Shown piece after piece: positions 1-18,684 of a stretch of 64,000 bases of DNA. The translations under genes and the position numbers were made by a program. Below the pieces are notes generated by a model, which was not told where the DNA came from, did not search any database, and saw only the letters and a list, made by a program, of their open reading frames with translations. This DNA comes from Bacillota bacterium. Lineage in GTDB: Bacteria; Bacillota; Clostridia; Ch29. The first letter of the stretch is position 1; every line of letters begins with the position of its first letter. The DNA lies in assembly GCA_013540605.1 (NCBI GenBank), contig JABVCK010000001.1, positions 1 through 64,000 of the forward strand, in the 5' to 3' direction.

Positions 1-155
1 GACTCTAAGACTTCATCAACATCGATATTTGCAGCTATCAGGATATCTTTGATGAATTCCGCCCTGGTGACATATACAGTATTGTCCATCCCGAGCGATG
101 CGACAGGCACGCCGATAACAATTAAAACGGCCAGTAAAACACATATTTTTTTCAT
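1..155 (-). CDS. Secreted protein with start of an SLH-like domain (partial, runs off window)
   Basis: The minus strand opens with an ATG at 155, preceded by a good GGAGGAT ribosome binding site around 160-168. The first 51 codons are visible. Residues 2-22 form a basic start and hydrophobic core typical of a signal peptide (MKKICVLLAVLIVIGVPVAS). The mature part then reads VTRAEFIKDILIAAN, which resembles the beginning of an S-layer homology repeat. I infer an exported, possibly wall-attached protein. The rest lies outside the window, so neither the number of SLH repeats nor any catalytic domain is known. Confidence 0.7.
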   Translation of the reverse strand, partial: MKKICVLLAVLIVIGVPVASLGMDNTVYVTRAEFIKDILIAANIDVDEVLE

Positions 156-405
156 ATGAAATCCTCCCAAAACTTTTATTTTGCAGTGCTGTTATGATTA
201 TATCATCTAAATAATCCCAATAGAACCTTATATATATAAATTATGGAACACTATGAATATAATATCAATTGACTGGTAAGGCCACCTGACAGTATGAACA
301 TACTAATATTTATGCAAAACGGAACAAATGTTAATAAATAGTCAAATATATTGAGAAAACGGATGATTATTATCGAATTTTGAAGATTATAGCATAATGT
401 CATAT
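156..405. other. AT-rich intergenic region
   Basis: This divergent spacer lies between the exported SLH-like protein (minus strand) and the FadR-type regulator (plus strand). It is very AT-rich with no plausible coding frame. An imperfect TGGT-N4-CCA motif around 275-287 is faintly like the downstream palindrome, but too degenerate to call. Apart from promoter DNA for the two flanking genes I see nothing definite here. Confidence 0.4.
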
Positions 406-434
406 TTGAAATAAACAAGGGGCTGGTATATGAT
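406..434 (+). promoter_or_regulatory. Probable sigmaA promoter of fadR1
   Basis: A TTGAAA -35 box at 406-411 and a TATGAT -10 box at 429-434 are separated by exactly 17 bp. Transcription would start near 441, a short distance upstream of the perfect palindrome at 454-476, so a protein bound there would block the polymerase. Confidence 0.55.
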
Positions 435-453
435 AAAACTAAACAGCATAGTT

Positions 454-476
454 GTAAGGTGGTATGACCACCTTAC
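454..476. promoter_or_regulatory. Perfect palindromic operator, GntR/FadR type
   Basis: Two perfect 10-bp arms (GTAAGGTGGT and its reverse complement) flank a 3-bp ATG spacer. The core TGGT-N3-ACCA matches the TNGT-N3-ACNA style of site bound by FadR-subfamily GntR repressors. It sits about 13-35 bp after the predicted transcription start and about 18 bp before the preferred start codon of the FadR gene. Autoregulation is the simplest reading. No second perfect copy was seen in the window. Confidence 0.7.
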
Positions 477-493
477 CGAAAGAGGTAGAGAAT

Positions 494-1201
494 ATGTTTG
501 AGCAGATTAAAAACGAAAAGATGTATATGCTTATTGTTAATCAGATTAAAACCCTGATCGAAGAAGGAAAACTGGCCGAGGGAGAAAAACTGCCCTCGGA
601 AAGAGACCTTGCAAATCAATTCGGCGTTAGTAGGCCTACAATAAGGGAAGCAATAACCGCCCTTGATATCATGGGCCTGGTCGAAGTAAAAGTAGGACTT
701 GGTACATTTGTCAAAAGCCGTCCTTTGCAAAAAGATCTGTACGAAATCGAAGCGGAATTATGGTCAACGATCAGTCCTACCGCCTTGTTTGAGGCAAGGG
801 TAGTAATCAGGCCGCAGCTTGCAAAACTGGCGGCACTAAGGGCAACGTATGAGGATCTGGAAGAAATCAGAAGGATTCTAGACCAGATGGATGAAGCCGG
901 GTGCAGTGAAAACGAGATAGAACTTTTCCAGGAATTGGATGCACAGTTCCATTTGGCAGTCGGTAAGGCAGCACACAGTGAGGCGCTATATTTATTTGAG
1001 GAGAGCATGTTCAGTCACAGAGCAAATAAGCTGTGGAAGGACTTGAAGAAACAGAGTCTTGAAATCCCAGGCAGAATGGAACTGTACAGGGAAGAGCATA
1101 GAGAAATATTCAAGGCAATCTATGAAAGGAACCCTGCACTGGCCGAAGAAGTCACGAGAAGGCATTTGAGCGATATCAAGCAGTATATGTTCGGAGAATA
1201 A
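494..1201 (+). CDS. GntR-family (FadR/FCD) transcriptional regulator 1
   Basis: This is a 235-residue regulator of the GntR family, FadR subfamily. The N-terminal winged helix carries the signature PSERDLANQFGVSRPTIREA, followed by LVEVKVGLGTFV. The C-terminal half is an all-helical FCD ligand domain with the usual metal or acid ligands: Asp and His in ELDAQFHLAVGKAA, His in EEHREIF and His in RRHLSDI. An upstream in-frame ATG at 464 lies inside the palindromic operator, so I prefer the ATG at 494. That choice also aligns with the paralogue at 9452 (MFEQIKNEKMY versus MFTPVKSKKMY). It heads the TRAP-AOR1 operon and probably represses it in response to a carboxylic acid; the ligand is unknown. 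Confidence 0.9.
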   Translation: MFEQIKNEKMYMLIVNQIKTLIEEGKLAEGEKLPSERDLANQFGVSRPTIREAITALDIMGLVEVKVGLGTFVKSRPLQKDLYEIEAELWSTISPTALFEARVVIRPQLAKLAALRATYEDLEEIRRILDQMDEAGCSENEIELFQELDAQFHLAVGKAAHSEALYLFEESMFSHRANKLWKDLKKQSLEIPGRMELYREEHREIFKAIYERNPALAEEVTRRHLSDIKQYMFGE

Positions 1202-1415
1202 CGTTAAGATGTACAGTATTAATGTTTCGGATTAAAGGTTTGGAAAGGGGGGTGGCAGTATAGGGGATATAGAATAGCAAAAAAGCCCGGTACATATAAA
1301 TACTTGCATATGAATGAACGTAATAAGCCGGGGAAAACAAATTTTCATAGCAAAACACAAGGAGGAACAGGAAGAGCTCCTCGCCAAAAAATGCGTTATA
1401 CAAGGAGGTTGAAAA

Positions 1416-2480
1416 ATGTACGGCAGAAAGGTTAGATGGTTAAGTGTTGCGTTGATGGTTTTCTTAGCAGCCAGTTTATTCGTGGGATGCACTCCCAAAG
1501 AGCAGACAGGCGGTACTGCAGAAACTCCTCCGGACCAGTCGGCAAGACCTCAATATATGGAAATAGCATGGGGCAGCTCGTCAACCGGTGGCGGCTACTA
1601 TTATGCAACAGGAGTGCTCGCTCCGATACTTACGGACGAAATAGACTATCTAAACGTTACAAATGTTGCCACAGGAGCATCTGCGGATAACGTCAAAAGG
1701 ATACTGATGGGTGAACTGGATTTTGGCATGGCGCACGGTTCGAATATCTATGAAGGCGCCAAAGGAATAGACAGTTTCCAAGGGCTTAATGGGGACAACA
1801 TCAGATTAGTAGCCTACTATATGCCTGGACCTCACTACTTTGTTACACTGAAGAAACAGAACATCAGGAGCATGAAGGACCTGGAAGGGAAGAAGGTCGC
1901 GTGTGGACAGCCGGGTTCCGGTGCTCAGTATAATTCGGATAAAATACTCGACATCCTGGGTTATAACGTAAAGCGTGAATACCTGCAGTTTGCTGATGCA
2001 GCCCGCGCATTGGTTGACGGTCAAATATCAGCCGTAGGTGCAACCGGTATCCCCGTAGGCGCAATCTCCGAGCTCTCGGAAACACAGGAAATAGTAATTA
2101 TTCCTTATACTGATGAAGAGATGGATAAGATACTGGGAGAAGTGGCTTTCTATTACGGAGATTCCATTCCTGCAGGAGCGTATAAGGGGGTAATGGAACC
2201 CGTTCAAACACCCTTTGTGCCGATGTTTATCGTTTGCCACAAAGACGTGCCGGACGAGGTAGTTTATGATATTCTGGAAGTTATTTTCAGGCCTGACGTA
2301 TACAAAAAACTCGGAGAAGGCTTCGGACAGTGGAAATTTACAAAACCGGGACTGGATTTGATGAAGAGGCTTGGCGCTCCTCCGATACATCCAGGGGCTG
2401 CAAAATTCTATGAAGATTTCAAGGACAAATACAACTTTGATGAGTACGGCAATGATGGCTGGGATGACAAGAATAAATAA
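1416..2480 (+). CDS. TAXI family TRAP transporter solute-binding lipoprotein
   Basis: This is a 354-residue periplasmic-type binding protein of the TAXI (TRAP-associated extracytoplasmic immunogenic) family. It begins with a lipoprotein signal peptide ending in FVGC, so the mature protein should be anchored by a lipidated Cys at about residue 25. Family features follow: SSSTGGGYYYATGVLAPIL near the start and a SMKDLEGKKVACGQPGSGAQ segment in the middle. The start codon follows a strong AAGGAGG site. It captures an organic anion, probably a carboxylate, and hands it to the fused permease at 2856-4718. The substrate cannot be read from the sequence, but the AOR, amidohydrolase and lyase downstream suggest an acid that is degraded to an aldehyde. 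Confidence 0.9.
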   Translation: MYGRKVRWLSVALMVFLAASLFVGCTPKEQTGGTAETPPDQSARPQYMEIAWGSSSTGGGYYYATGVLAPILTDEIDYLNVTNVATGASADNVKRILMGELDFGMAHGSNIYEGAKGIDSFQGLNGDNIRLVAYYMPGPHYFVTLKKQNIRSMKDLEGKKVACGQPGSGAQYNSDKILDILGYNVKREYLQFADAARALVDGQISAVGATGIPVGAISELSETQEIVIIPYTDEEMDKILGEVAFYYGDSIPAGAYKGVMEPVQTPFVPMFIVCHKDVPDEVVYDILEVIFRPDVYKKLGEGFGQWKFTKPGLDLMKRLGAPPIHPGAAKFYEDFKDKYNFDEYGNDGWDDKNK

Positions 2481-2517
2481 CAGCAGCACGGTTTGAAACG
2501 GCTATCTATAGCCTGAG

Positions 2518-2548
2518 AGAGGAGATAGTCACAGGGATTATCTCCTCT
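2518..2548 (+). promoter_or_regulatory. Intercistronic hairpin after the binding-protein gene
   Basis: The arms AGAGGAGATA and TATCTCCTCT pair over 10 bp around an 11-nt loop, with no U-tract after them. This looks like an RNA-stabilising or attenuating hairpin. Such elements often let a binding protein be made in excess over its permease. Confidence 0.5.
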
Positions 2549-2576
2549 TAACCTATAGGAGGAAAGGAGACACACC

Positions 2577-2826
2577 TTCTATCAGTTGCCAGTGATCAGT
2601 TACCAGTGGTCAGAGTATAGTTACCAGTTAACAGATGACAGACAATAGTTCACAGTTCCTAGTTGCCAGTACATAGGGTGGAGCTAAAAGGGAAAGCCTA
2701 TAAGATTACCCCTGGAGACTGATAACTACGAACTAGAAACTCAACTACTGTGATCTGTGATCTACGAACTACGAATTACCACCTAGTACCTAGCACCTGT
2801 GATCTGTGATCTAGCATCTAGAAATG
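2577..2826 (+). repeat. Dispersed inverted-repeat element, family A, copy 1
   Basis: About 250 bp with no coding frame, built from short related words. The left arm holds CAGTTGCCAGT, CAGTTACCAGT, AGTTAACAGATGACAGAC. The right arm holds ACGAACTACGAATTACC, ACCTAGCACC and CTGTGATCTGTGATCT. The right arm is roughly the reverse complement of the left arm, so the whole can fold as a long imperfect hairpin. The same architecture recurs at about 24447, 26838, 41549 and 46054. Here it separates the TAXI binding protein from its permease. Confidence 0.75.
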
Positions 2827-2855
2827 TCTCCAAATAAAGAAAGGGGTGAGAGGAT

Positions 2856-4718
2856 ATGAAAAGGGAGCTTCAGGGTAATTGGAAAAAAGTCTTCTACTGG
2901 ATCTCAGTAGCAATGGGTGCCTTCTATTTTTATACGGCAGGCTTTGGCCTTGTTTCCACAGAAAGCCACAGGGGAATGTATCTGATGTTCAACTCAGTCC
3001 TATGCCTTATTCTATATGGGGGTTCCAAAAGGTCGAAAAAAGTAGGCCTGATTGACATCGCTTTAATCCTAATGAGCATCGTGACCTTCGGGTATTGGAT
3101 TAAACAGTATCCGTCATATGCAATATATAGGTTTGCCAGTCCTAATATCTACGATACCGTATTCGGAGTTGTTGCAATCATAGTTCTCCTTGAATCGGTA
3201 AGGAGGGTAATGGGCTGGGTGCTGGTAATTATTACGACTGTTTTCCTGGGCCAGCTGTATTACGGCCCTTATCTCCCGGGGATACTTTCGCACCGGGGCT
3301 TCTCGCTCGTCAGGATAATCGAGTTTTCATACAGCACTATGGAAGGCATGTTTGGAGTTGTAACAGATACCTTTGCAACCTACGTTATCCCATTTATTAT
3401 TTTTGGGTCAATATTGGAGGTCTCAGGGGCAGGGGAATTTTTTATTCAGCTGGCAAAATCCGCGACAAAAAACTGGGTGGGCGGTCCGGCAAAAATGTCG
3501 GTGCTGGCTAGCGGACTGATTGGTTCAATTACAGGCAGCTCGGCTGCAAATGTAGTGACTACCGGAGTATTCACCATACCCATGATGAAAAGGGTTGGGT
3601 TTAAAGGGGAAGAAGCAGGCGGCATAGAAGCGGCAGCTTCAACCGGTGGGCAGTACCTGCCTCCTGTTATGGGTGCCGGGGCTTTCCTGCTGGCTGTTTT
3701 TTCAGAAACAAGCTATCTTAAAGTGGCTGCCATGAATGTGGTGCCTGCGCTGCTGTACTTCTATTGGGTAGGCTGGTCGATACACCACCGCGCCCTCAAA
3801 ATGAACATACAGGTTAACCGTGATGAGGAAATTCCACCGGCCAAAGAGACCTTAAAGAAAGGCTGGTACTATTTCCTACCTATGATTACCATCGTTGTTC
3901 TTTTGCTGATGCATTATTCACCGCCGTTCTGCGCGTTCTATTCTATACTGCTGACCATAGCGCTCAGCTGGATCAACCCCAAGAACAGGATTACCCCGAA
4001 GAGATTCGCCGATGCCCTGGCTTCTGCTGCAAAGAACAACCTTTCGGTAGGGGCAACCATAGGGGTTCTGGGACTCGTGCTGTCTGCCATCGTATTGGCC
4101 GGCCTGGGTGCCAAGTTTGGTGCTCTGGTTGTGGCATTGTCGCACGGGAACCTGTTCATTGCTATTATTTTGATTAGCGTTGTTTCAACACTGGTAGGTA
4201 TGGGAGCAACCCAGACAGGCACTTATATAGTCGTGTCGCTTGTTGCTGTACCGGCGCTTACCAGTATGGGAGTGAGCCATCTTGTAGCACATGTGATTTC
4301 TTTCTGGACAGCCGGGCTATCAAATGTAACTCCCCCGGTTTGCGTATCCGCCTACGCTGCGGCAAGCATAGCCGATGCTGATCCTATGAAAACCGGTGTA
4401 TGCGGTTTGAAGTATTCAACCATGCTTTACGTGGCGCCGTTTGTGTTTGCCTATTTCCCGCAGATGCTGCTTCAGGGAACCCCATTCCAGATAATATACA
4501 TATTTGCCCTGTATCTGCTGGCGACTCCCATAGCAACCGCAGCGCTGCAGGGATACTGGTTCAAGAGGCTTTCACTGCCTCAAAGGCTGTTTGTGGGGGC
4601 TATTGGTTTCTTTGTCCTGATACCTAATATGCTTTACAATGCGCTGGCCTTTGGTGCGCTGGGACTGTTCCACTACTATGCAGTCAACCGCCCTAAGAAT
4701 ACTTTGACACACGCATGA
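2856..4718 (+). CDS. TRAP transporter permease, fused 4TM-12TM subunit
   Basis: This is a 620-residue integral membrane protein combining the small (DctQ-like, 4 TM) and large (DctM-like, 12 TM) TRAP subunits. The N-terminal 170 residues hold several hydrophobic helices. The large subunit starts near residue 175 and carries the family signature GSITGSSAANVVTTGVF, later repeated as the pseudo-symmetric GMGATQTGTYIVVSL. Such fused permeases pair with TAXI binding proteins, and the one at 1416-2480 is the obvious partner. Uptake would be driven by Na+ or H+. The gene starts at an ATG after AAAGGGGTGAGAGG. A family A repeat separates it from the binding-protein gene. Confidence 0.93.
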   Translation: MKRELQGNWKKVFYWISVAMGAFYFYTAGFGLVSTESHRGMYLMFNSVLCLILYGGSKRSKKVGLIDIALILMSIVTFGYWIKQYPSYAIYRFASPNIYDTVFGVVAIIVLLESVRRVMGWVLVIITTVFLGQLYYGPYLPGILSHRGFSLVRIIEFSYSTMEGMFGVVTDTFATYVIPFIIFGSILEVSGAGEFFIQLAKSATKNWVGGPAKMSVLASGLIGSITGSSAANVVTTGVFTIPMMKRVGFKGEEAGGIEAAASTGGQYLPPVMGAGAFLLAVFSETSYLKVAAMNVVPALLYFYWVGWSIHHRALKMNIQVNRDEEIPPAKETLKKGWYYFLPMITIVVLLLMHYSPPFCAFYSILLTIALSWINPKNRITPKRFADALASAAKNNLSVGATIGVLGLVLSAIVLAGLGAKFGALVVALSHGNLFIAIILISVVSTLVGMGATQTGTYIVVSLVAVPALTSMGVSHLVAHVISFWTAGLSNVTPPVCVSAYAAASIADADPMKTGVCGLKYSTMLYVAPFVFAYFPQMLLQGTPFQIIYIFALYLLATPIATAALQGYWFKRLSLPQRLFVGAIGFFVLIPNMLYNALAFGALGLFHYYAVNRPKNTLTHA

Positions 4719-4763
4719 AACAAATACATTAAATGATTTAATCCACAGGAGGTGTTTTCCAAT

Positions 4764-6602
4764 ATGTACGGCTATATGGGAAAATCATTAACTATTGATC
4801 TAACAAAGAATCAGTTCTCAACTGAACCCCTGGACAGGGAAAGAGCCAGAAAATTCCTGGGGGGCAGGGGCTTGGGCGCCAGGGCGCTGTTTGACCACGA
4901 TATTACGGTTGATGCCTTCGACGAGAAAAATCCCGTAATAATTGCGACCGGTCCTCTTACCGGAGCGCTCTTCACAGGCTCTAAATTTGTTTTTATTACA
5001 AAGTCTCCATTGACGGGTATCTTCAATGATTCTTACTGCGGGGGCAGCTTTGCCTCAGAGATAAAATTCGCGGGCTACGACATGATTACAATATTGGGTA
5101 AGGCTGCAAAACCAAGCTATATATATATCTATAATGATAAGATCGAAGTCAGGGACGCCGGGCACTTATGGGGTCTAGGTTCGGATGAAACGGAATCAGC
5201 GCTTAAGAAGGAGCTGGGCCGGGAGTTCAAGGTTGTCACAATCGGGCCTGCAGGGGAAAAACTGGTTCCCTACGCCTGCGTATCAACCGATTTCTATCAC
5301 CAGGCAGGGAGGGCCGGCGCCGGAGCAGTACTAGGCGCCAAGAATATTAAAGCTATAGCCATAAAAGGAAGCCAGGGTATAAAGGTGGCCGAACCGGACA
5401 AACTTTTCTCCTTTGTAGTTAACGAACTACCGGTGATGTTTAAGAATTCTGTGTTCGGAGAAAACCGGATAAGGTATGGTACGAGCTACACAACGACCTC
5501 AACCAACGCCCTTGGTATTATGCCGACCCGTAACTTTCAAACCGGAACATTTGAAAATATTGACGATATTAACGCCTTTGCAATGAGGGAAAGGATAGTG
5601 GAAAGGGATAAGGCCTGCTATGGATGCCAGGTACCATGCGGCAAATACAGTGTGGTCAAGAAAGGCAAATACGTAGGAACAAAAGTGGTAGGTCCTGAAT
5701 ACGAAACCATAGGCCTTCTTGGTTCGAACTGCGGGGTTGGAGAAATTGAAGCTATTGCAAAGGCTAACCTGTTGTGCGACCAGCTAGGCCTGGACACCAT
5801 GTCAGCGGGTTCAGCCATTGCCTTTGCCATGGAGTGTTTTGAGAGAGGCATACTGACCAAGGACGATGTGGACGGGCTGGATCTGAGGTTTGGAAACGAT
5901 GATGCACAGATGGAGCTTATACGGAAGATTGCCTTCAGGGAAGGAATAGGAGACATACTGGCCCAGGGAGTTAAGAAGGCATCAGAGATAATAGGAAAAG
6001 GCTCGGAAGAGTTTGCGATACACAGCAAAGGCTTGGAGCTGGCTGCCTATGACCCGAGAGGCGCCTTTGCAATGGGCCTTGCCTATGCTACTGCGAGCAG
6101 GGGCGGCTGCCATAGAAGGGCTAAACCCGTTGACGTTCCGGGACTATCACAGGACGAGTACAGCAGCTTCGGATGGAAAGGGAATGCAGCACTGGTTGAA
6201 AGGCTTCAGGATTTCAGGGAGATTGTTCATTCGGCGTTGATCTGCGACCCGGCGCTCAGGTTTGGATTTGAAATGAAGCTTAAGGGTTTGACCGATGTAA
6301 TCAATATGGTTACGGGTATGGACTTTACCTTCGACGAGCTATCCCTGATGGCGGACAGAATAGCAACCCTTGCGAGAGCTTATAACGTAAAGCAGGGTAT
6401 AACGCGCAAAGACGATACCTTGCCTTCGAGGATTCTGAACCAGCCTCTGCCTGAAGGGCCTGGTAAAGGCCAAATCATAGGGCAGGAGACCATGGACAGG
6501 ATGCTGGATGAATACTACGAACTTAGGGGCTGGGATAAGGAAACCGGTGTTCCTACTAAAGAAACCCTTGAAAGGATGGGTTTGGATTTTATAGAGCTAT
6601 AA
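4764..6602 (+). CDS. Aldehyde:ferredoxin oxidoreductase 1 (tungsten/molybdopterin enzyme)
   Basis: A 612-residue enzyme of the AOR family, which oxidises aldehydes to carboxylic acids and passes two electrons to ferredoxin. The N-terminal AOR domain shows FLGGRGLGARALFD and TGPLTGALFTGSKF, which line the bis-pterin cofactor. The 4Fe-4S ligands are the C-x2-C-x3-C motif CYGCQVPC near residue 285 plus a late Cys in HSALICDPAL. GPEYETIGLLGSNCG is the family signature. A GTG at 4752 lies within the ribosome binding site, so ATG 4764 is the proper start. The next gene encodes its likely electron acceptor. Whether W or Mo is used cannot be decided from sequence, though the family normally uses W. 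Confidence 0.93.
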   Translation: MYGYMGKSLTIDLTKNQFSTEPLDRERARKFLGGRGLGARALFDHDITVDAFDEKNPVIIATGPLTGALFTGSKFVFITKSPLTGIFNDSYCGGSFASEIKFAGYDMITILGKAAKPSYIYIYNDKIEVRDAGHLWGLGSDETESALKKELGREFKVVTIGPAGEKLVPYACVSTDFYHQAGRAGAGAVLGAKNIKAIAIKGSQGIKVAEPDKLFSFVVNELPVMFKNSVFGENRIRYGTSYTTTSTNALGIMPTRNFQTGTFENIDDINAFAMRERIVERDKACYGCQVPCGKYSVVKKGKYVGTKVVGPEYETIGLLGSNCGVGEIEAIAKANLLCDQLGLDTMSAGSAIAFAMECFERGILTKDDVDGLDLRFGNDDAQMELIRKIAFREGIGDILAQGVKKASEIIGKGSEEFAIHSKGLELAAYDPRGAFAMGLAYATASRGGCHRRAKPVDVPGLSQDEYSSFGWKGNAALVERLQDFREIVHSALICDPALRFGFEMKLKGLTDVINMVTGMDFTFDELSLMADRIATLARAYNVKQGITRKDDTLPSRILNQPLPEGPGKGQIIGQETMDRMLDEYYELRGWDKETGVPTKETLERMGLDFIEL

Positions 6603-6642
6603 CGACAAAAAATATGATAATCCTTTGAGAAGAGGTGGAAGT

Positions 6643-7050
6643 ATGGCAAATCAGAAAATTAACGTAAATCATGACCTTTGCACCGGTTGCAGAATGTGCG
6701 AGCAGGTTTGCTCAATGAATTATACCAAGGATGAGATAAATCCGCAGAAATCGAATATAAGGGTAGAGACCGATGCGTTGATCGGATACGACAGACCTGT
6801 TGTCTGCAGCCAGTGTGAGGGCAAATTCTGCATGAAGGCATGTCCCTTTGAAGCGATCAAGATTAATGAAAAAACAGGCGCGGCGGAAGTGGACCGAGAG
6901 GAATGCACGGGATGCTGGGCTTGCATTGATGCATGCCCGGAAAAAGCGATGTTCAAGAACCTTGAGGACGGCGTCGCTATGAAATGCAATCTTTGCGGGG
7001 GGAATCCCCAGTGCGTAAAGGTCTGCACAATGAAAGCCATAACCTTCTAG
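6643..7050 (+). CDS. Four-cluster ferredoxin-like subunit of AOR1
   Basis: A 135-residue iron-sulfur protein with four Cys clusters in order: CTGCRMCEQVC, CSQCEGKFCMKACP, CTGCWACIDACP and CNLCGGNPQCVKVC. This is the arrangement of HycB/AorA-like electron-transfer subunits that carry up to four 4Fe-4S centres. It lies 40 bp after AOR1 and should pass electrons from the pterin enzyme to free ferredoxin or NAD. I chose ATG 6643 after AGAGGTGG rather than the upstream TTG at 6625. A close relative, also beside an AOR, is at 18828-19223. Confidence 0.9.
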   Translation: MANQKINVNHDLCTGCRMCEQVCSMNYTKDEINPQKSNIRVETDALIGYDRPVVCSQCEGKFCMKACPFEAIKINEKTGAAEVDREECTGCWACIDACPEKAMFKNLEDGVAMKCNLCGGNPQCVKVCTMKAITF

Positions 7051-7137
7051 TCTGATAGATATTATGCTCCCGGTGACGGGTGAAAACTGTTTGTGCATTC
7101 AAATGCGCATTACACAAAATGAGCGGGAGGGAGTTAA

Positions 7138-8133
7138 ATGATAAAGGCGATAGATGCCCATGCTCACTATCTGCCGTCCGGTTTTGTCGAGCTGATCAGG
7201 AAGGATGACAAATATCTGGCAGAACTGGTGGAGAAGGATGAAAACACAAAGCTGATACAGTTTAAAGGCGGCTACGCGCACCCCTATAATCAACTCTTTA
7301 TTGATCCGAAGGCAAGGCTGCAATATATGGATGAGCACAATATTGAATGCCATGTACTGTCAGTTTCCCCCAGGCTGTTCTACTATGGCGCTCCTGCCGA
7401 AATAGCAGCTGAGATTGCCTATACGTGCAACAATGAGATTCACTCTGTAGTTAACAGGCATAGGGGAAGATTCGTAGGGATGGCGACAGTACCGCTGCAG
7501 GATATAGAGATGGCGGTAAAAGAATTGAAAAGGGTAAAGGACGAACTCGGGTTTTCTGCAGTTGAAATCGGCAGCGAGGTAAATGACAAGAAACTGTCCG
7601 ATCCGTATTTCCTGCCCTTTTTCGAAGAAGCAGCGAAGAATGATATGTTCATCCTGATCCATCCCCAGGCAGTAGGTAAAATAAAATACATGGAAGAGTA
7701 CTACCTGGGTACAATACTCGGACATCCGTTTTATACAACCATTGCGATTGCCAACCTGATTCTAAGCGGGATATTCGATAAGCTTCCGAAGCTCAAGATC
7801 GGCTTATCCCATGGTGGCGGGTATTTGCCTTACCAGCTGGGAAGGCTTGAGCATGGTTTCAGGGTAAGAAAGGAAACAAAGGCGGATATTCAGAGAAGCC
7901 CTATGTCATATATCAAAGACCATGTTTACTTTGATACAATAACCCATTCAAAGGAGGCGTTGGGATTCCTGATAAAAACAGTTGGAGCTGACAACGTCTT
8001 TATGGGCACGGACTATCCCTTTGACATGTGCGAGATGGAACCGGTGAATATGATACAGGAACTGGGCTTGAGCAAAGAGGAGGAAGAGAAAATCCTGTTC
8101 GGAAACGCCTGTGAGCTGTTCAAGATCGGTTAG
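7138..8133 (+). CDS. Amidohydrolase-family enzyme, ACMSD-like decarboxylase/hydrolase
   Basis: A 331-residue TIM-barrel metalloenzyme of the amidohydrolase-2 family. That family includes aminocarboxymuconate-semialdehyde decarboxylase, 5-carboxyvanillate decarboxylase and gamma-resorcylate decarboxylase. The N-terminal metal motif H-x-H appears as IDAHAHYLP. Further ligands are seen in FILIHPQAVG, LSHGGGYLP and FMGTDYPFDM, the last giving the conserved Asp. The start ATG follows GGGAGGGAG. It lies in the TRAP-AOR1 operon, which suggests a non-oxidative decarboxylation or C-C bond hydrolysis of the imported acid or a product of it. The exact substrate is unknown. Confidence 0.82.
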   Translation: MIKAIDAHAHYLPSGFVELIRKDDKYLAELVEKDENTKLIQFKGGYAHPYNQLFIDPKARLQYMDEHNIECHVLSVSPRLFYYGAPAEIAAEIAYTCNNEIHSVVNRHRGRFVGMATVPLQDIEMAVKELKRVKDELGFSAVEIGSEVNDKKLSDPYFLPFFEEAAKNDMFILIHPQAVGKIKYMEEYYLGTILGHPFYTTIAIANLILSGIFDKLPKLKIGLSHGGGYLPYQLGRLEHGFRVRKETKADIQRSPMSYIKDHVYFDTITHSKEALGFLIKTVGADNVFMGTDYPFDMCEMEPVNMIQELGLSKEEEEKILFGNACELFKIG

Positions 8134-8172
8134 AGACGGGCTTTGAAGCTGCATGAAAGGAGAGTGTTATAT

Positions 8173-9408
8173 ATGTCTGGTCAGCCGTGGAAATCCGATA
8201 AGTGGTTTACCAGCCCGTGGAATTTCCAGGAGGAAGTGGTTCGGGATATAAGCTTCGCTGATAAGATTAAACTGCATGATGTTACCCTTCGGGATGGAGA
8301 GCAGCAGGCAGGAGTTGCTTTTAACAGGGACCAAAAGGTTGCAATAGCTGAGAAGCTGGCAGAACTGGGTGTTCACAGGATAGAAGCAGGAATGCCTGCG
8401 GTTTCAAAACAGGATGAGGAAGCTATCCGGGAGATAGTCAAGAGAGACCTGGGTCCGGAAATATTCGCGTTTTCCAGATGCATGAAAGAGGATGTGAAAA
8501 GAGCGGCCGATACGGGCGTTAAGGGTATTGTAGTGGAAATTCCCTCCAGCGAACATATCATTCAAAATGCATACAGATGGCCCCTTGAGAAAGCCATAGA
8601 TCTATCGATTGAAGCTACCCAATACGCAAAAGAACTTGGGCTGTATACCGTCTTTTTCCCTATAGACATGAGCCGTTCAGATATGAAGTGGGTTCTGGAC
8701 CTTGTTGAGCGGGTTGCCAACGAAGGGCATATGGATGCGCTGGCTGTTGTGGATACCCTTGGTGGATTAAACCCCCATGCAATACCTTATCTGATCAGGA
8801 AAACGAAGGAAAGGATACAGAAACCGATAGAGGCACATTTCCATGACGACTTTGGTATAGGCGCGGCAAATACGATAATGGCCCTTGCATCCGGGGCGGA
8901 AGTTGCCCACACAACCGTTACAGCGATGGGGGAAAGGGCAGGGAATTCGCCCTATGAGGAAGTCGCATTGGCGTTGCTGACAATGTACGGCAAAGATATT
9001 GGGCTTAAGTATGAAAAAATGTACGAAGTTTCGAAATTTGTGAGGGAAATTGCACACCTTCAGATAAGGCTCAACAGACCGATAGTAGGTGAGATGGTTT
9101 TCAATATTGAATCCGGAATAATAGCGGACTGGTATAAAAACTGCGGCAATGAAGCGCCGTTGGAACTATCCCCCTATACTACAGATCTTGTAGGACAGAA
9201 ACCCACAAGGGTGGTTCTGGGTAAAAACAGCGGGATGCCTTCCATAGAGATTTGGCTTGATGAAATCGGACTATCCGGGATTGATAACGACCGGAAGGCG
9301 GAGATCCTTGCCAGGGTAAAGGAGAGGGCCTTAATAAAAGGCTGGCTGCTGGATGAAGACGAGTTTAAGGACATTGTTCATAAAGTTACAGGAATTGATG
9401 CCGAATAG
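8173..9408 (+). CDS. DRE-TIM metallolyase family protein (HMG-CoA lyase / homocitrate synthase-like)
   Basis: A 411-residue protein of the pyruvate-carboxylase-like/HMGL superfamily. The DRE catalytic motif reads LHDVTLRDGEQQAG near residue 35, and the divalent-metal H-x-H motif reads EAHFHDDFGIGAANT. The length and the LGKNSG segment near the C-terminus are shared with homocitrate and isopropylmalate synthases. It could therefore be an acyl-CoA/2-oxoacid synthase or an aldolase/lyase. The start is ATG 8173 after GAAAGGAGAG; an in-frame TTG at 8143 is less likely. It follows the amidohydrolase by 39 bp in the FadR-controlled operon. The reaction is not resolved by sequence. Confidence 0.75.
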   Translation: MSGQPWKSDKWFTSPWNFQEEVVRDISFADKIKLHDVTLRDGEQQAGVAFNRDQKVAIAEKLAELGVHRIEAGMPAVSKQDEEAIREIVKRDLGPEIFAFSRCMKEDVKRAADTGVKGIVVEIPSSEHIIQNAYRWPLEKAIDLSIEATQYAKELGLYTVFFPIDMSRSDMKWVLDLVERVANEGHMDALAVVDTLGGLNPHAIPYLIRKTKERIQKPIEAHFHDDFGIGAANTIMALASGAEVAHTTVTAMGERAGNSPYEEVALALLTMYGKDIGLKYEKMYEVSKFVREIAHLQIRLNRPIVGEMVFNIESGIIADWYKNCGNEAPLELSPYTTDLVGQKPTRVVLGKNSGMPSIEIWLDEIGLSGIDNDRKAEILARVKERALIKGWLLDEDEFKDIVHKVTGIDAE

Positions 9409-9451
9409 ATTGATAAATATCCTTAATATTAAGCAGAAGGATGTGCGAATC

Positions 9452-10153
9452 ATGTTTACCCCTGTTAAAAGCAAAAAGATGTACGTTCTTGCGGCAGACC
9501 AGATAAAGGGACTCATAGAGGAAGGCAGGCTGAAGGCCGGGGAGCAGCTGCCGTCGGAAAGAGACCTGGCTATCCAACTCGGGGTAAGCCGTTCTACCGT
9601 AAGAGAAGCAATGACCGCTTTGGAGATACAGGGTTTGATAGAGGTCCGTTCAGGACTGGGTACCTTTATCTGTGAACAACCGGATAAAGGAAGTCCGGTC
9701 CTCGTATTGGATGATATTGATGAGGGAACCAGTCCTTTTGAAGTCTTTGAAGCACGGATGATCATTGAGCCGGTTCTTGCACGTTTGGCTGCACAGCGGG
9801 CAACCAAGGAAGTTCTGGATGACATGAGAAGGAATGTTGATGCGTGCGAAATGATCAATGATTTTGACTATGAAGCATTTGAAAGGCTGGATGAGGAGTT
9901 TCACCTGATTATTGCCAGGGCGGCAAACAACGAGGCGCTGTATAAATTTGAAGAGAGCATCAACAGCAAGAGGATGGGCAGATTGTGGGGCAGTCTCAAG
10001 CTAAAGAGTTTGCAGAAGGAGGGAAGGATTAAAAAGTATAAGAACGAGCACAGAGAAATATTAGAGACAATAACTGAGAGAAATCAGGGGAAAGCAGAGC
10101 ATCTGGTGAGAATGCACCTGAAGGATATAAAGAGGCATATTTTTGGGGACTAA
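9452..10153 (+). CDS. GntR-family (FadR/FCD) transcriptional regulator 2
   Basis: A 233-residue paralogue of the regulator at 494. The winged helix reads PSERDLAIQLGVSRSTVREA and is followed by LIEVRSGLGTFI. The FCD domain has matching ligand residues: Asp/His in LDEEFHLIIARAA, His in NEHREIL and His in RMHLKDI. The start is ATG 9452, which aligns with the first regulator. It is only 43 bp after the lyase gene and so may be the last gene of the AOR1 operon as well as a local regulator of AOR2, 170 bp downstream. Two similar regulators flanking one pathway suggest cross-talk or response to substrate and product. Confidence 0.9.
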   Translation: MFTPVKSKKMYVLAADQIKGLIEEGRLKAGEQLPSERDLAIQLGVSRSTVREAMTALEIQGLIEVRSGLGTFICEQPDKGSPVLVLDDIDEGTSPFEVFEARMIIEPVLARLAAQRATKEVLDDMRRNVDACEMINDFDYEAFERLDEEFHLIIARAANNEALYKFEESINSKRMGRLWGSLKLKSLQKEGRIKKYKNEHREILETITERNQGKAEHLVRMHLKDIKRHIFGD

Positions 10154-10192
10154 CCGGAGTGTTCTCATCGTATTGCGTAACTCATTCTTGAA

Positions 10193-10228
10193 ATCACCTG
10201 TGGGTATATTGCCTGTCCCACAGGTGAT
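10193..10228 (+). promoter_or_regulatory. Strong 12-bp stem-loop in the leader of AOR2
   Basis: ATCACCTGTGGG (10193-10204) pairs perfectly with CCCACAGGTGAT (10217-10228) around a 12-nt loop. It is followed by a C-rich strand that can form a short second stem with GCGGGC near 10240. There is no U-tract, so it is not a classical terminator. A structured leader about 100 nt ahead of a pterin-enzyme gene could be an attenuator or metabolite sensor; I could not match it to the Moco RNA consensus by eye. Confidence 0.5.
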
Positions 10229-10324
10229 GCCCCCCTTTATGCGGGCACTGTAGTCTCCAAAACTTGAAAACCTGCAAACGCAGATGGTCCAGTACGTAGT
10301 CTTTTGTGATAGGAGGAAATTGCA

Positions 10325-12034
10325 ATGTATAGGATTATTCGAATTGATTTGAACGAAAAAAGAGTTCAATCAGAGGTTTGTAAACCCGAGTTGGATGTAA
10401 TCGGAGGCAGGGCTTTGATTAGCAAAATTATGCTTGAGGAGATAGAACCTACCTGCGACCCCCTGGGACCCAGGAACAAATTAATATTTGCGGCCGGGGT
10501 TCTTGCAGGGACAACCGTTTCCTGTGTAAACCGCATATCAATAGGCGGAAAAAGTCCGCTGACCGGCACAATAAAGGAAAGCAATGCAGGCGGAACCACA
10601 GCGTACAAAATGGGTAGGCTGGGCATAAGAGCCCTGGTATTCGAAGGCATTCCAAGGGATGATAAATTGTATATACTGTATGTGTCGGAAGAGAAAACCG
10701 AATTGATAGAAGCAGATGGACTAGAGGGCATGGGAGTTTATGACAGTGCAAAGGAGTTGAGGAGACGTTTCGGAGATAAGGTTGGGATTGCCCTTATCGG
10801 TCCGGCAGGCGAGAAGATGCGTTTAGCTTCAGGCATAGCTAATACTGATAACGAGGGTATACCTTCCAGGTATTCGGCAAGGGGCGGACTTGGCGCTGTT
10901 ATGGGCTCCAAAAAAATCAAGGCTGTAGTGATTGATGATCGTAATGCCAAAGGGCCGTTCATTGCTAATGAAGAACAGTTTAGAAAAGTTAGGGATACAA
11001 TTTCGGATATTATCATTAACAATGAGCAAATTGCAAACTCATATACAAAATTCGGTACTGCGAACCTGGTTAACCTGACCAACAGTATGGGCGCCCTGCC
11101 GACCCGGAATTTCAGTACAGGAAGCTTTGAGGGAGCAGAGGAAATCAACGGTCAGAAATTGTATGACCTTATAACAGAACGGAAGGGAGAGGGCAAACCC
11201 AGCCATGCATGCATGCCGGGATGCCTTATTCGCTGTTCGAATGTGTTTCCCGGTGAAGACGGCAAGACAATAGTATCGCCCATTGAGTATGAAACGATAG
11301 GATTGCTTGGCTCCAACTGTGGGATTGCCTGCCTTGATACCATAGGAAGACTGAACTACCTGTGCAACGATATCGGGCTTGATACGATAGAAATCGGTGG
11401 AGCAATAGGAGTAGCGATGGAAGCAGGAGTGATAAGCTTTGGCGATGGAGAAGGGGCTGTAAACCTGTTAGAGGAAGTGAAAAAGGATACGTACCTTGGA
11501 AAGCTCATCGCTTCAGGAGCCACATTGACAGGAAAGGTCCTTGGGGTAAACCGTATTCCCGCTACCAAGGGACAGACGCTGGCAGCATATGACCCGCGCG
11601 CTATTAAAGGCCTTGGGGTTACTTATGCAACATCAACAATGGGTGGCGACCATACTGCCGGGCAAACTCTGAGGGCTCCGGTAGACCACAGAAAACCGGA
11701 AGGACAGGTGGAAGCGTCGAAAAATGCTCAAATATCCAATGCAATACATGACTGCATTGGGACTTGCTTCTTTGTTGGCGGAGCTATTAAAGGAGACCTT
11801 CAGTTGTTGGGAGATTTGATCGGGAGCATGACCGGAAAGCCATGCCGCGTTGAAGATATGAAGGAACTGGCGAAGGCAACGCTGTTGAGAGAAAAACAAT
11901 TCAATACGCGAGCCGGTTTTAACGAAGGCGATGATATGCTTCCTGAATTCTTCTATTATGAGGAAAACCCTGCAACCGGAACCGTATTTGATGTGGACAG
12001 GGAGGAAATGAAGCTGGTTCATAAATTTGAGTAA
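10325..12034 (+). CDS. Aldehyde:ferredoxin oxidoreductase family protein 2
   Basis: A 569-residue member of the AOR family, about 40 residues shorter than AOR1 and AOR3. Pterin-domain motifs include DVIGGRALISKIML and GKSPLTGTIKESNAGG. EYETIGLLGSNCGIA matches the family signature. Its first cluster-ligand motif is CMPGCLIRC, a C-x3-C-x3-C spacing rather than the C-x2-C-x3-C of the other two. A late Cys pair occurs in DCIGTC. No dedicated ferredoxin gene follows. Its neighbours are instead a tautomerase, a C_GCAxxG_C_C protein and a MoaD-like carrier, so it may act on a different, perhaps aromatic or oxo-acid-linked, substrate. Start: ATG after GATAGGAGGAAATTGCA. Confidence 0.9.
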   Translation: MYRIIRIDLNEKRVQSEVCKPELDVIGGRALISKIMLEEIEPTCDPLGPRNKLIFAAGVLAGTTVSCVNRISIGGKSPLTGTIKESNAGGTTAYKMGRLGIRALVFEGIPRDDKLYILYVSEEKTELIEADGLEGMGVYDSAKELRRRFGDKVGIALIGPAGEKMRLASGIANTDNEGIPSRYSARGGLGAVMGSKKIKAVVIDDRNAKGPFIANEEQFRKVRDTISDIIINNEQIANSYTKFGTANLVNLTNSMGALPTRNFSTGSFEGAEEINGQKLYDLITERKGEGKPSHACMPGCLIRCSNVFPGEDGKTIVSPIEYETIGLLGSNCGIACLDTIGRLNYLCNDIGLDTIEIGGAIGVAMEAGVISFGDGEGAVNLLEEVKKDTYLGKLIASGATLTGKVLGVNRIPATKGQTLAAYDPRAIKGLGVTYATSTMGGDHTAGQTLRAPVDHRKPEGQVEASKNAQISNAIHDCIGTCFFVGGAIKGDLQLLGDLIGSMTGKPCRVEDMKELAKATLLREKQFNTRAGFNEGDDMLPEFFYYEENPATGTVFDVDREEMKLVHKFE

Positions 12035-12105
12035 AGAGCTTGTGCAGGTTTTCCGGCATGGAACCGGGATTATGTTAAATAATGCAGTAAAGGAGGTGAC
12101 TGAGA

Positions 12106-12297
12106 GTGCCGATTATTCACATAAATATGACCGAGGGCAGGACGGAAGAACAGAAGCAAAAAATTGCCGAAGGTATTACGGATGTTATGGTTAAGGAAGC
12201 AAAGGTCAAGGAAGAGGCGGTAAGAATAATATTCAACGATTTAAAAGGTGAGAACCTGGCCATAGGCAAGAAGCTGTTCAAGGATTTGAACAAATAG
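12106..12297 (+). CDS. 4-oxalocrotonate tautomerase family protein
   Basis: A 63-residue protein that, after removal of the initiator, begins with the catalytic Pro-1 of the tautomerase superfamily (PIIHINMTEGRTEEQKQKI). The size equals the canonical 62-residue hexameric 4-OT subunits. Arg-11 is conserved in EGRTEEQ, and a second Arg is present in VRIIFND. It starts at a GTG after AAAGGAGGTGACTGAGA. It follows AOR2 by 71 bp and probably isomerises an enol or unsaturated acid intermediate of that pathway. Confidence 0.87.
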   Translation: MPIIHINMTEGRTEEQKQKIAEGITDVMVKEAKVKEEAVRIIFNDLKGENLAIGKKLFKDLNK

Positions 12298-12357
12298 CAG
12301 GATAGGGTTTTGCAGCAAAGAATAAATCATTGGATTAACAAGGGGTATATAAGGCTG

Positions 12358-12411
12358 GGGTAATGCCACATCCATATGAGCGAGGAGTTTTCAAGGGAGG
12401 TGGTATTACCC
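12358..12411 (+). promoter_or_regulatory. Long-stem hairpin upstream of the C_GCAxxG_C_C gene
   Basis: GGGTAATGCCAC (12358-12369) pairs with GTGGTATTACCC (12400-12411), giving 12 pairs of which one is G-U, around a 30-nt loop. It lies in the spacer between the tautomerase and the next gene. No U-tract follows, so an RNA-processing or regulatory role is likelier than termination. Confidence 0.4.
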
Positions 12412-12442
12412 TATTTAATAGTAAGATTGGAGGCGTTCCAAT

Positions 12443-12907
12443 ATGGATGCTTTGCTTGCGGAAGCGGCAAAAAAATGTGAGGAATACAGACTCATGAGAT
12501 ACCACTGTTCAGAATCCAGCATACGTGCCCTATCGGAAGTATTTGATATTGACCTGTCCGAAGAACTGCTGCGAGTGTCCAGCGGTTTTCGGGGTGGAGG
12601 CGGCGGATACCGCGAACGCTGTGGTATTGTTGAAACCGGGATCATGCTGATTTCACTCAGGTACGGCAGAATAAGCCCTGGAGATAGTGCCGATGAATAC
12701 AGCTATCTGATAAGGGTTCTTCACGAAAGGTTTTTAGCTGAACTGGGAAGCTATACATGCCGGGTTTTAAGGCCATTTTCACAGCGCATAGCACCGGATA
12801 ATAGCGGCTCATTCGTATACCGGGAAGGGGTAAAAATCGTTGCAAGGCTATTGCTGGAAGCAGACGGTTTAATATCGGATATACCTGAAGAAGAAAGGAA
12901 CAAGTAG
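12443..12907 (+). CDS. C_GCAxxG_C_C family redox protein
   Basis: A 154-residue protein of the C_GCAxxG_C_C family (putative redox-active proteins with spaced cysteines). Expected landmarks appear in order: Cys in RYHCSESSIRAL, the Gly-rich stretch FRGGGGGYRERCG, and Cys in GSYTCRVL. The biochemical function of the family is not firmly known; members often occur near oxidoreductase or metal genes in anaerobes. The start ATG follows TTGGAGGCG. It sits between the tautomerase and the MoaD-like carrier of the AOR2 cluster. Confidence 0.65.
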   Translation: MDALLAEAAKKCEEYRLMRYHCSESSIRALSEVFDIDLSEELLRVSSGFRGGGGGYRERCGIVETGIMLISLRYGRISPGDSADEYSYLIRVLHERFLAELGSYTCRVLRPFSQRIAPDNSGSFVYREGVKIVARLLLEADGLISDIPEEERNK

Positions 12908-12995
12908 TCGCCGGTGAAGGAAAAGGGTATAATAGAAGTGCATAGATGGATCGTGCAGAGACAAAAGCTAATAAACAGGCAGGTGAGAGATAGAG

Positions 12996-13271
12996 TTGAA
13001 GATAGTGAATATTAAGCTGTATGTACCGGAAGCCAGCAATTTTGCGAATAAGAGCTTGAAATTTGAAGTTGAGGATACGGCGGACTTTGAACGCAAACTG
13101 GTAGGCTTTTTCGTCAGCAATGATTTAAAACAGCTCTTGTACCCTGATACCGGTAAGATAAAGGATATTTATTCATACGTTCACGATGAAAAAGTCTACA
13201 CAAACATTAACGATATTCAGCTGAAGGACTATAATGAAATAACTATGTTTGCATACATTCTCGGGGGCTAA
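12996..13271 (+). CDS. MoaD/ThiS-like sulfur-carrier protein (AOR2 cluster)
   Basis: A 91-residue ubiquitin-fold protein that ends in the diglycine FAYILGG, the terminus thiocarboxylated in MoaD- and ThiS-type sulfur carriers. The N-terminal strand MKIVNIKLYVPE and the final hydrophobic strand fit the beta-grasp fold. The start is a TTG at 12996, after GCAGGTGAGAGA. MoaD homologues beside AOR genes are usually taken to supply dithiolene sulfur for tungstopterin. No MoaE, MoeB or MoaA gene is nearby, so its activating enzyme must be elsewhere. Confidence 0.8.
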   Translation: MKIVNIKLYVPEASNFANKSLKFEVEDTADFERKLVGFFVSNDLKQLLYPDTGKIKDIYSYVHDEKVYTNINDIQLKDYNEITMFAYILGG

Positions 13272-13326
13272 GAATTACGTAAAATATGTGTCCCCTGACA
13301 TTAATTCAAACAGGAGGAATGGAGCT

Positions 13327-14262
13327 ATGGAAGGAAAGAACATATGCGTTGTAGGTATTGGAGGGCTTGGGGGGTATTTTGGAGCAAAGCTTGCCAAGGC
13401 GTTTGAGCAGTCGCCTGATATGAATGTAAGCTTTGTAGCGAGAGGAAATCATCTTAAAGCGATTCAGGAAGACGGCCTTACCCTGATGTCCCCGGAGTTT
13501 GGTGTTGTAAACTGCAAGCCGGCAATGGCAACAGACAAGTTCAAAGATCTTCCGAAGACCGATTTGTTTATCCTTGCGGTTAAGGGCTATGACCTTGAGG
13601 AAACGGCAGTGAATCTCAGGGATGTTGTGAAAGAGGATACAGTAGTTATTCCTTTGCTTAATGGAGTGGATATATACGACAGGCTCAAAAGCATAATAAA
13701 GGAAGGGATTATTCTGCCTGCATGCGTATATATCACCGCATATATTGAAGGGCCGGGGATTACAAAGCATGAGGGGAATCCGGGCAGGATTGTGTTCGGA
13801 AGGGACAAACAAAGACCGGATTTTGTTCCGGAAGCTGTAATTGACATTTTCAACAAGGCTAATATAAACAACGTTTGGAGAGATGATATTGAGAGTGAGA
13901 TCTGGGAAAAGTTTATTTTTATCGCTAGTTTTGCTCTGGTCACTGCTCATTATAACAAGCCTATGGGTGATGTTCTGAACGATAAGACCATGAGGGAAGA
14001 GGCGGTAGCAATAATGAATGAAATCTCCGGCTTAACGAAAAAGAAGGGCATAGCCATTCCTGAAGGAATCGTAGATATCACATTGAGAAAAGCAGCTGCC
14101 TTTCCCTATGATACTCAGTCTTCACTGCAAAGGGATATTAACCTCAAGAAAGCAAAGAACGAGCTGGACGCCATAGGGGGAGTCATAGTAAGACAGGGGA
14201 AAGAGCTGGGGCTCAGCACTCCGGTTACGGAGAGGCTGTACAGCAGTTTGAAGAATATGTAG
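13327..14262 (+). CDS. Ketopantoate reductase / ApbA-PanE-like 2-oxoacid reductase
   Basis: A 311-residue NAD(P)-dependent oxidoreductase of the ApbA/PanE fold. The Rossmann motif GIGGLGGYFGAKL is near residue 9. The inter-domain segment NGVDIYDRLKSII corresponds to the family NGV substrate loop, and the C-terminal helical domain contains DTQSSLQRDI, equal to the family S-S-x-x-x-D signature. True PanE belongs to pantothenate synthesis, but no pan gene is near. The position at the end of the AOR2 cluster suggests a catabolic 2-oxo or 3-oxo acid reductase. ATG 13327 after CAGGAGGAATGGAG is preferred to the far-upstream in-frame start at 13249. Confidence 0.82.
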   Translation: MEGKNICVVGIGGLGGYFGAKLAKAFEQSPDMNVSFVARGNHLKAIQEDGLTLMSPEFGVVNCKPAMATDKFKDLPKTDLFILAVKGYDLEETAVNLRDVVKEDTVVIPLLNGVDIYDRLKSIIKEGIILPACVYITAYIEGPGITKHEGNPGRIVFGRDKQRPDFVPEAVIDIFNKANINNVWRDDIESEIWEKFIFIASFALVTAHYNKPMGDVLNDKTMREEAVAIMNEISGLTKKKGIAIPEGIVDITLRKAAAFPYDTQSSLQRDINLKKAKNELDAIGGVIVRQGKELGLSTPVTERLYSSLKNM

Positions 14263-14289
14263 ATTTGGTGCTATGCTGTCCTGCATTGC

Positions 14290-15096: not shown

Positions 15097-15162
15097 TTTT
15101 GAACGCAAACACTATCGGCATTTGAAGAAACATTGTAATGGGAAAATAAGGGATACACGTTA

Positions 15163-15206
15163 ATCAAAAGGGGACACGCCTTTTCAAAGGAGTGCCCCCT
15201 TTCCTT
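15163..15206. repeat. REP-like GGGGACA palindrome, family B
   Basis: TTAATCAAAAGGGGACACGCC is followed by a partly complementary GGAGTGCCCCCTTT. Related palindromes occur near 24634, 35760, 37910, 41654, 44890, 45944 and 58112. It overlaps the junction between the decayed desulfidase and the protease-gene relic. Confidence 0.6.
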
Positions 15207-15263: not shown

Positions 15264-15292
15264 AATAATGTAATAATCGTATCATTTTTTCA

Positions 15293-18656: not shown

Positions 18657-18684
18657 GGTGCAAGGTCGAGAATAAATGTTCAGT

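Follow-up and report, generated by a model that had tools for sequence, protein, structure and literature searches.

Does a single operon that joins a solute importer to a tungsten enzyme and a putative carbon–carbon lyase encode the breakdown of an imported organic acid? The question is raised by positions 464–9408 of the window, by which we mean the first 64,000 nucleotides of contig JABVCK010000001.1 of a Bacillota bacterium (Clostridia; GCA_013540605.1). Seven open reading frames (ORFs) lie there in one direction on the + strand and encode, in order, a GntR/FCD regulator (GntR1), a TAXI-family substrate-binding protein (SBP), a fused TAXI-TRAP permease, a tungsten-type aldehyde:ferredoxin oxidoreductase (AOR1), an Fe-S protein, an Amidohydro_2 protein and an HMGL-like protein of the DRE-TIM type, here called LeuA-like. 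The same co-directional order had been described in a sequence-only reading, and all its ORFs were confirmed, with identities assigned by Pfam and NCBIfam profiles against curated cut-offs; the accompanying interpretation, a FadR-controlled degradation operon, is partly supported. Besides the genes, the computation yielded a putative operator and a linkage between TAXI permeases and AORs. The finding of most value is a LeuA-like family that keeps the binding residues of its relatives and has lost the residues by which they use acetyl-CoA.

Active site and genomic partners of the LeuA-like protein

The AlphaFold model of the LeuA-like protein (pLDDT 93.9) is nearest to homocitrate synthase 6ktq (Z 43.1, rmsd 2.2, 379 residues aligned), and its predicted fold is that of a Claisen-type synthase, including the C-terminal subdomain. 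The protein shares this fold, and the Arg, Asp, Gln, Thr, His and His that serve the substrate and the metal, with the Claisen-like DRE-TIM enzymes isopropylmalate synthase, homocitrate synthase, citramalate synthase and MAM. In contrast to these enzymes, the Glu and His that act on acetyl-CoA are replaced, and the gene sits with importers rather than in biosynthetic operons. The barrel and the metal site are also common to HMG-CoA lyase and 4-hydroxy-2-oxovalerate aldolase (Z 28–31), which cleave C–C bonds. However, assignment to either was rejected at 50 bits against a cut-off of 246 for the HMG-CoA lyase model (NF004283) and 73 bits against 286 for the aldolase model (TIGR03217).

The active site was compared in an alignment of 47 family members, with BjMAMS (6E1J; PMC11532901) as the reference. 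The equivalents of R89, D90, Q93, T257, H288 and H290, which comprise the metal and 2-oxo-acid residues and the Gln near CoA, are invariant (47/47). In contrast, the position of E227 is Ile in 46 of the 47 proteins, and the general base H388 has given way to Ile, Val or Pro in every one; in MAMS, the E227A and H388A substitutions abolish activity (PMC11532901). In the window protein, these two positions are residues 174 and 327. Both Glu and His are kept in two further LeuA-type proteins of the genome, a canonical LeuA and a homocitrate-synthase-like enzyme on contigs C11 and C35, and a 40% identical paralogue in a second operon (L065, see below) has lost both. We claim the loss for these two residues only, because the position of MAMS Tyr399 is not reliably alignable, not even in the LeuA of the genome itself. 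Since the metal and substrate residues are kept while Glu and His are lost, the family appears able to bind a 2-oxo acid while lacking the acetyl-CoA machinery known so far. From this residue pattern, we propose as the simplest reading that the protein would be a 2-oxo-acid C–C lyase or aldolase and not an acetyl-CoA synthase. Of the DRE-TIM lyase named in the sequence-only reading, the C–C lyase reading is supported by the lost acetyl-CoA residues, whereas kinship with HMG-CoA lyase does not, the nearest relatives being LeuA and homocitrate synthase.

When 84,980 species genomes were scanned, the LeuA-like family was found at 51 loci, with identities of 42–72%, nearly all of them 51–72%. These loci are spread over Clostridia-like metagenome-assembled genomes, Halanaerobiales, Synergistota, Rokubacteria, Armatimonadota, Actinomycetota, Alphaproteobacteria and others; a literature search on the family returned nothing relevant. 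The co-directional partners include a D-2-hydroxyacid dehydrogenase (22/51), an importer gene (20/51; of the LIV-type ABC, DctP-type TRAP or tricarboxylate type) and an FCD/GntR-type regulator (14/51). At loci L029 and L037, for example, the set is reduced to a 2-hydroxyacid dehydrogenase, the LeuA-like protein and an importer, with a GntR gene nearby. Rarer partners are Zn- and Fe-dependent alcohol dehydrogenases, M24 proteins, Amidohydro_2 proteins (an ACMSD-like cluster, at five other loci), a LarA-type racemase, altronate-type, IlvD/EDD and fumarase-type dehydratases, FAH hydrolases, PanB and an FAD hydroxyacid oxidase. These enzymes have 2-hydroxy or 2-oxo acids as substrates, or else aldehydes and alcohols derived from them.

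Two further features were seen at these loci. Glycyl radical enzymes stand beside the LeuA-like gene, a 2-hydroxyacid dehydrogenase and a DctP TRAP importer at L017 (5066–7495) and L014; a sulfolactate or sulfopropanediol route at L017 was rejected, the nearest specific model (sulfopropanediol dehydratase) scoring 674 against a cut-off of 1000. At L015, L018 and L022, the LeuA-like gene is directly followed by one for a protein of 115–118 residues that is DsrE-like by eye; the L022 copy had no Pfam match at E 1e-5.

Importer, tungsten oxidoreductases and amidohydrolase

An AOR gene lies within 5 kb of four of the six full fused TAXI permeases of the genome, in co-directional runs. The four sites are the 464–9408 set of the window, contig C1 at 121–133 kb (L065), and one site each on contigs C24 (L067) and C21 (L072). 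With 15 AOR-family genes in 3.35 Mb, several of them with WorS-like partners, our own arithmetic gives a chance expectation of about 0.27 pairs and P of about 6e-5 for at least four. The window permease was also used as a query for adjacency in foreign genomes. Its four nearest relatives there are 46–54% identical, and in two of them, from two other genera, an AOR follows, directly after the permease at L115 and behind a small VOC-family-like gene at L116. At L117, the third of the four, the AOR is 7 kb away, beside another TAXI permease. The closest relative, L114, has no AOR; a GntR 52% identical to GntR2, the second regulator of the window, is found there, and the neighbours read by sequence as an Fe-dependent alcohol dehydrogenase, a GarR-like protein and PanB. 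No AOR was seen within 1.5 kb of the more distant permease relatives. Since four of the six permeases have an AOR close by and the combination is found again in other genera, the pairing is not a matter of chance, and functional coupling of TAXI import with AOR is supported.

The second TAXI–AOR operon of the genome, L065 (G000:C1:116000-134000), encodes a DddP-like M24 protein, an AOR, a D-2-hydroxyacid dehydrogenase, the LeuA-like paralogue, a Zn-dependent alcohol dehydrogenase, a TAXI SBP, a permease and an OYE-like flavoprotein. Its SBP is 28% identical to that of the window. In an AOR tree with 7 of 12 inner branches unresolved, AOR1 groups with C35a, apart from the AOR of this operon; the two TAXI–AOR–LeuA-like operons therefore do not seem to stem from a recent duplication. 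The M24 protein was rejected as DddP, a dimethylsulfoniopropionate lyase, of which it is only a distant relative (113 bits, cut-off 600). Elsewhere in the genome, one AOR stands beside an ABC sugar-type importer (L068) and one beside a DctP TRAP (L074).

Both importer components of the window exceed their curated cut-offs, which bears out the TAXI-TRAP assignment made from the sequence. The combination of a TAXI SBP with a fused permease is that of the TAXI-type TRAP transporters for glutamate (VcGluP/TtGluBP) and o-phthalate (Azoarcus). Glutamate binding by VcGluP is determined mainly by Q93 and Y45, with Q93 having a 990-fold effect on affinity (PMC11574862). When the sequences alone are aligned, the VcGluP motif ALAQND falls on MAHGSN of the window SBP, and the Tyr and Ser positions align; unlike in VcGluP, the glutamate-critical Gln is His, and the importer genes are tied to an AOR. 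A VcGluP-type glutamate binder was rejected for want of this Gln, and the His in its place hints, weakly, at a ligand without an alpha-amino group, which would fit a hydroxy or oxo acid.

AOR1 has the AFOR_N and AFOR_C domains, the GPEYE and GGCH motifs and, in alignment, the Cys cluster ligands; it is closest to PfAOR and other solved AORs, so that its earlier identification holds. The next protein, previously labelled a ferredoxin, is not a simple one: its 16 Cys in four CxxCx2-5CxxxC motifs make it WorS-like. Class II WORs are defined by the WorS subunit, with four [4Fe-4S] clusters (PMC13328260), and the two window proteins fit a WorL and WorS pair of this class as judged from their motifs. 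The order, an AOR large subunit and then a 16-Cys small subunit, is that of PfASOR and CbGOR, but unlike these, AOR1 and its partner are located in an importer operon. A role has been defined for only 5 of 92 WOR clades (PMC13328260).

Among solved structures, ACMSD is nearest to the amidohydrolase (194 bits to the human enzyme). The metal centre (HxH, His, His, Asp) is aligned and kept, as in ACMSD and related decarboxylases and hydratases; no curated NCBIfam model matched the protein. Unlike in ACMSD, the residue equivalent to the substrate Arg (human R47, Pseudomonas R51; placed by means of mutant PDB sequences) is His, and most relatives encoded close to LeuA-like genes in other phyla have Tyr or Val there. 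The ACMSD-like enzyme of the sequence-only reading is therefore retained for its metal site but not for ACMSD function, and it likely carries out ACMSD-related chemistry, that is, decarboxylation, hydration or hydrolysis.

A possible uptake and breakdown module and its alternatives

We read the operon as a ligand-induced module for the uptake and breakdown of an organic acid, with C–C cleavage by the LeuA-like enzyme and aldehyde oxidation by AOR1, and put the probability of this reading at about 0.4. The acid would probably be a non-amino hydroxy- or oxo-carboxylate. GntR1 would act as a repressor by binding a 23-bp palindrome over its own start codon, and its release would constitute induction. 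The TAXI-TRAP transporter would import the acid, which the amidohydrolase might trim or hydrate by decarboxylase or hydratase chemistry. In the LeuA-like enzyme, the metal together with Arg and Thr would then hold the 2-oxo (or 2-hydroxy) acid, and the enzyme, using no acetyl-CoA, would cleave a C–C bond to give a small 2-oxo acid and an aldehyde, which AOR1 and its WorS-like subunit would oxidize with reduction of ferredoxin. We infer the order of the steps, the direction of the AOR and the lyase rather than synthase activity. A more tentative proposal concerns the family: it may be an unrecognised DRE-TIM subgroup in which a synthase fold has turned into a CoA-independent C–C lyase for imported hydroxy or oxo acids, from Clostridia and Synergistota to Rokubacteria and Alphaproteobacteria, its aldehyde being passed here to a dedicated tungsten AOR that yields reduced ferredoxin.

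Several points weigh against such a module. Judged by overall fold, the closest structures to the LeuA-like protein are those of synthases (6ktq, Z 43), its family retains the Gln beside the CoA thiol, and an AOR can also run reductively (PMC13328260). Among the genomes searched, the exact six-gene set was seen only in the source genome, and the commonest partner of the LeuA-like family, the 2-hydroxyacid dehydrogenase, is absent from the window operon. The route cannot be called complete, as had been suggested, because this dehydrogenase (found in 22/51 operons of relatives) or another hydroxy-acid enzyme is missing. Scatter of the six genes in relatives had been named beforehand as evidence against a common pathway, and it was found in part: three genomes of the same family have LeuA-like orthologues, about 72% identical, in a quite different operon, together with an ABC importer, an acetate-kinase-family protein, an altronate-type dehydratase, a GntR regulator, a 2-hydroxyacid dehydrogenase and LarA, and with no AOR. 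The amidohydrolase had no match at E 1e-40 in three same-family genomes. What does recur are two modules, TAXI with AOR and the LeuA-like protein with 2-hydroxyacid dehydrogenase and importer, which are joined twice in the source genome (window and L065). The combination as such is thus not what is unusual about the locus; the cross-phylum LeuA-like family and the coupling of TAXI import to a tungsten AOR are.

This lack of conservation would suit a looser assembly, with GntR1, TAXI and AOR as one unit and the amidohydrolase and LeuA-like enzyme merely co-transcribed and serving an unrelated acid. A looser assembly would also fit the AOR-free, ABC-importer operons of the 72% orthologues and the TAXI–AOR pairs that have no LeuA-like gene (L067, L072, L115 and L116). 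We nevertheless consider it doubtful, given a second TAXI, AOR and LeuA-like operon in the genome with divergent sequences (40% for the LeuA-like protein, 28% for the SBP), gaps of only 9–87 bp from the AOR to the LeuA-like gene, and the presence in other phyla, at L031, L032 and L040, of ACMSD-like genes close to LeuA-like ones. The LeuA-like enzyme could instead still be an acyl-CoA synthase that uses another base, for chain extension or in the manner of a Re-citrate synthase, and the operon would then make or extend a 2-oxo acid. Its nearest fold and models are indeed those of homocitrate and isopropylmalate synthases, no variation is seen in the metal and 2-oxo-acid residues or in the Gln near CoA, and the same superfamily includes Re-citrate synthases as a divergent branch (PMC12016533). 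However, aliphatic residues replace the Glu and His needed in MAMS, the gene is accompanied across phyla by importers, GntR regulators and enzymes of hydroxy-acid catabolism, and a canonical LeuA and a homocitrate-synthase-like enzyme are already present elsewhere in the genome, which together make continued synthase activity unlikely.

The AOR, for its part, might work reductively or merely remove aldehydes, outside the route of the imported compound. AORs are reversible, and many have been assigned to aldehyde detoxification or acid reduction (PMC13328260, PMC10816221). Because AORs are linked to TAXI importers at four sites of the genome, dedicated substrates are indicated, and an AOR outside the route seems quite unlikely. 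Pantoate or a similar hydroxymethyl-branched acid, degraded via ketopantoate or 2-ketoisovalerate, has also been considered as the substrate. PanB and Fe-dependent alcohol dehydrogenase genes are found beside LeuA-like genes at L061 (PanB above its curated cut-off) and L046 (PanB family), and both, with a GarR-like gene, flank the nearest TAXI relative L114 as read by sequence. A ketopantoate-reductase-like gene, also named by sequence, is present 4 kb downstream (13324–14262), and LeuA enzymes naturally bind 2-ketoisovalerate. PanB is nevertheless found at only a few of the 51 loci, and others carry sugar-acid, tartrate/fumarate-type or IlvD dehydratases; the family therefore likely serves several acids, and pantoate in particular is a long shot.

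The ligands of TAXI-TRAP transporters and the physiology of tungsten AORs are both poorly known, and at this locus the two constrain one another. A LeuA homologue that lacks the acetyl-CoA residues and is as widespread as this one is prone to misannotation as leucine or homocitrate synthase in many genomes. If the lyase reading is true, a synthase fold has turned lyase, and the metabolic models of several phyla would have to be corrected.

Regulators, operon limits and downstream genes

Table 1. Positions of the regulatory, transport and enzyme features in the window, with the evidence for each.
Feature	Position	Strand	Evidence or remark
Best sigma-70-like promoter 5' of GntR1	406..434	+	TTGAAA-17-TATGAT, 10/12; consensus scan only
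Putative FCD-GntR operator	454..476	strand-neutral	perfect 23-bp palindrome GTAAGGTGGT-ATG-ACCACCTTAC
GntR1, GntR + FCD regulator, PdhR/LldR/NanR-like	464..1201	+	PF00392 71.9 bits, PF07729 77.4 bits
TAXI-family TRAP SBP	1416..2480	+	TIGR02122 209 bits, cut-off 84
Fused TAXI-TRAP permease (QM)	2856..4718	+	TIGR02123 566 bits, cut-off 321
AOR1, tungsten-type AOR large subunit (WorL)	4752..6602	+	AFOR_N + AFOR_C
WorS-like small subunit	6625..7050	+	16 Cys, four CxxCx2-5CxxxC [4Fe-4S] motifs
ACMSD-related amidohydrolase (Amidohydro_2)	7138..8133	+	ACMSD metal site kept
LeuA/HCS-like DRE-TIM protein (HMGL-like; HCS, homocitrate synthase)	8143..9408	+	ATG at 8173 may be true start
GntR2, second FCD-GntR, possibly end of same transcript	9452..10153	+	50% identical to GntR1, 66% to C35 GntR
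AOR2, short AOR, large separate clade	10325..12034	+	76% identical to AOR beside C35 GntR

GntR1 belongs to the FCD-type regulators (Table 1), and its start codon is the centre of the palindrome at 454–476. FadR, PdhR and other FCD regulators bind sites of the type seen in the core of the palindrome, TGGTNNNACCA. Only two exact copies of the core GTGGTNNGACCAC exist in the 3.35-Mb genome, both of them at FCD-GntR genes that are linked to AORs. The second site, on contig C35, is 28 bp ahead of an FCD-GntR gene whose product is 66% identical to GntR2 and 54% to GntR1, and the AOR that follows is the one related to AOR2. No operator-like site was found upstream of GntR2. Because the core is confined to these two FCD-GntR sites and is not found at GntR2, the pattern supports autoregulation of GntR1 through the putative operator and perhaps cross-talk with GntR2. 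As RNA, 454–476 is predicted to form a hairpin with the AUG in the loop (z -3.6), and a translational effect is therefore possible. GntR1 was rejected as a FadR that senses fatty acids, with 33 and 30 bits against the cut-offs of 189 and 249 of curated FadR models; PdhR, LldR and NanR models outscore these and are also below cut-off. What survives of the proposed FadR control is an FCD-family GntR with a near-unique site at its own start.

The gaps across the seven genes are, in order, 214, 375, 33, 22, 87 and 9 bp, so the spacing is loose between GntR1, SBP and permease and tight from the permease through the HMGL-like gene. A + strand terminator scan inside the set gave no good candidate. 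Window base 1 is the start of a 342-kb contig, and the sequence 5' of 464 is for this reason cut. Promoter-like sites in the region are as numerous as expected from shuffled sequence, and an Rfam scan of window positions 1–20000 returned no match. The 375-bp gap within the TRAP genes (2481–2855) is full of degenerate short repeats (CAGTTACCAGT..., CTGTGATCT...) and is probably the remnant of an intergenic repeat.

GntR2 and then AOR2 continue downstream in the same direction, and their membership of the operon is uncertain. AOR2 makes a weak candidate for the module, as its best matches in other genomes have a TAXI neighbour in only two cases. Between the two genes, at 10193–10228, lies a perfect 12-bp inverted repeat (ATCACCTGTGGG...CCCACAGGTGAT) without a T tract; it is absent from the paralogous GntR–AOR pair on C35, the genes of which are 19 bp apart.

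Beyond AOR2, positions 12443–14262 encode a C_GCAxxG_C_C redox protein, a MoaD/ThiS-like protein and the ketopantoate-reductase-like protein, the last two named by sequence; the MoaD/ThiS-like protein is possibly WorX, a type reported near WORs. Genes for a sigma-54 regulator, two aminotransferases, an NhaC-like antiporter and a third AOR (19169–20986) give the stretch 15415–24411 the look of a region for amino-acid fermentation. Further downstream, at 28703–32041, are a glycyl radical enzyme and its activase, the NCBIfam assignment being trans-4-hydroxy-L-proline dehydratase (1458 bits, cut-off 1100).

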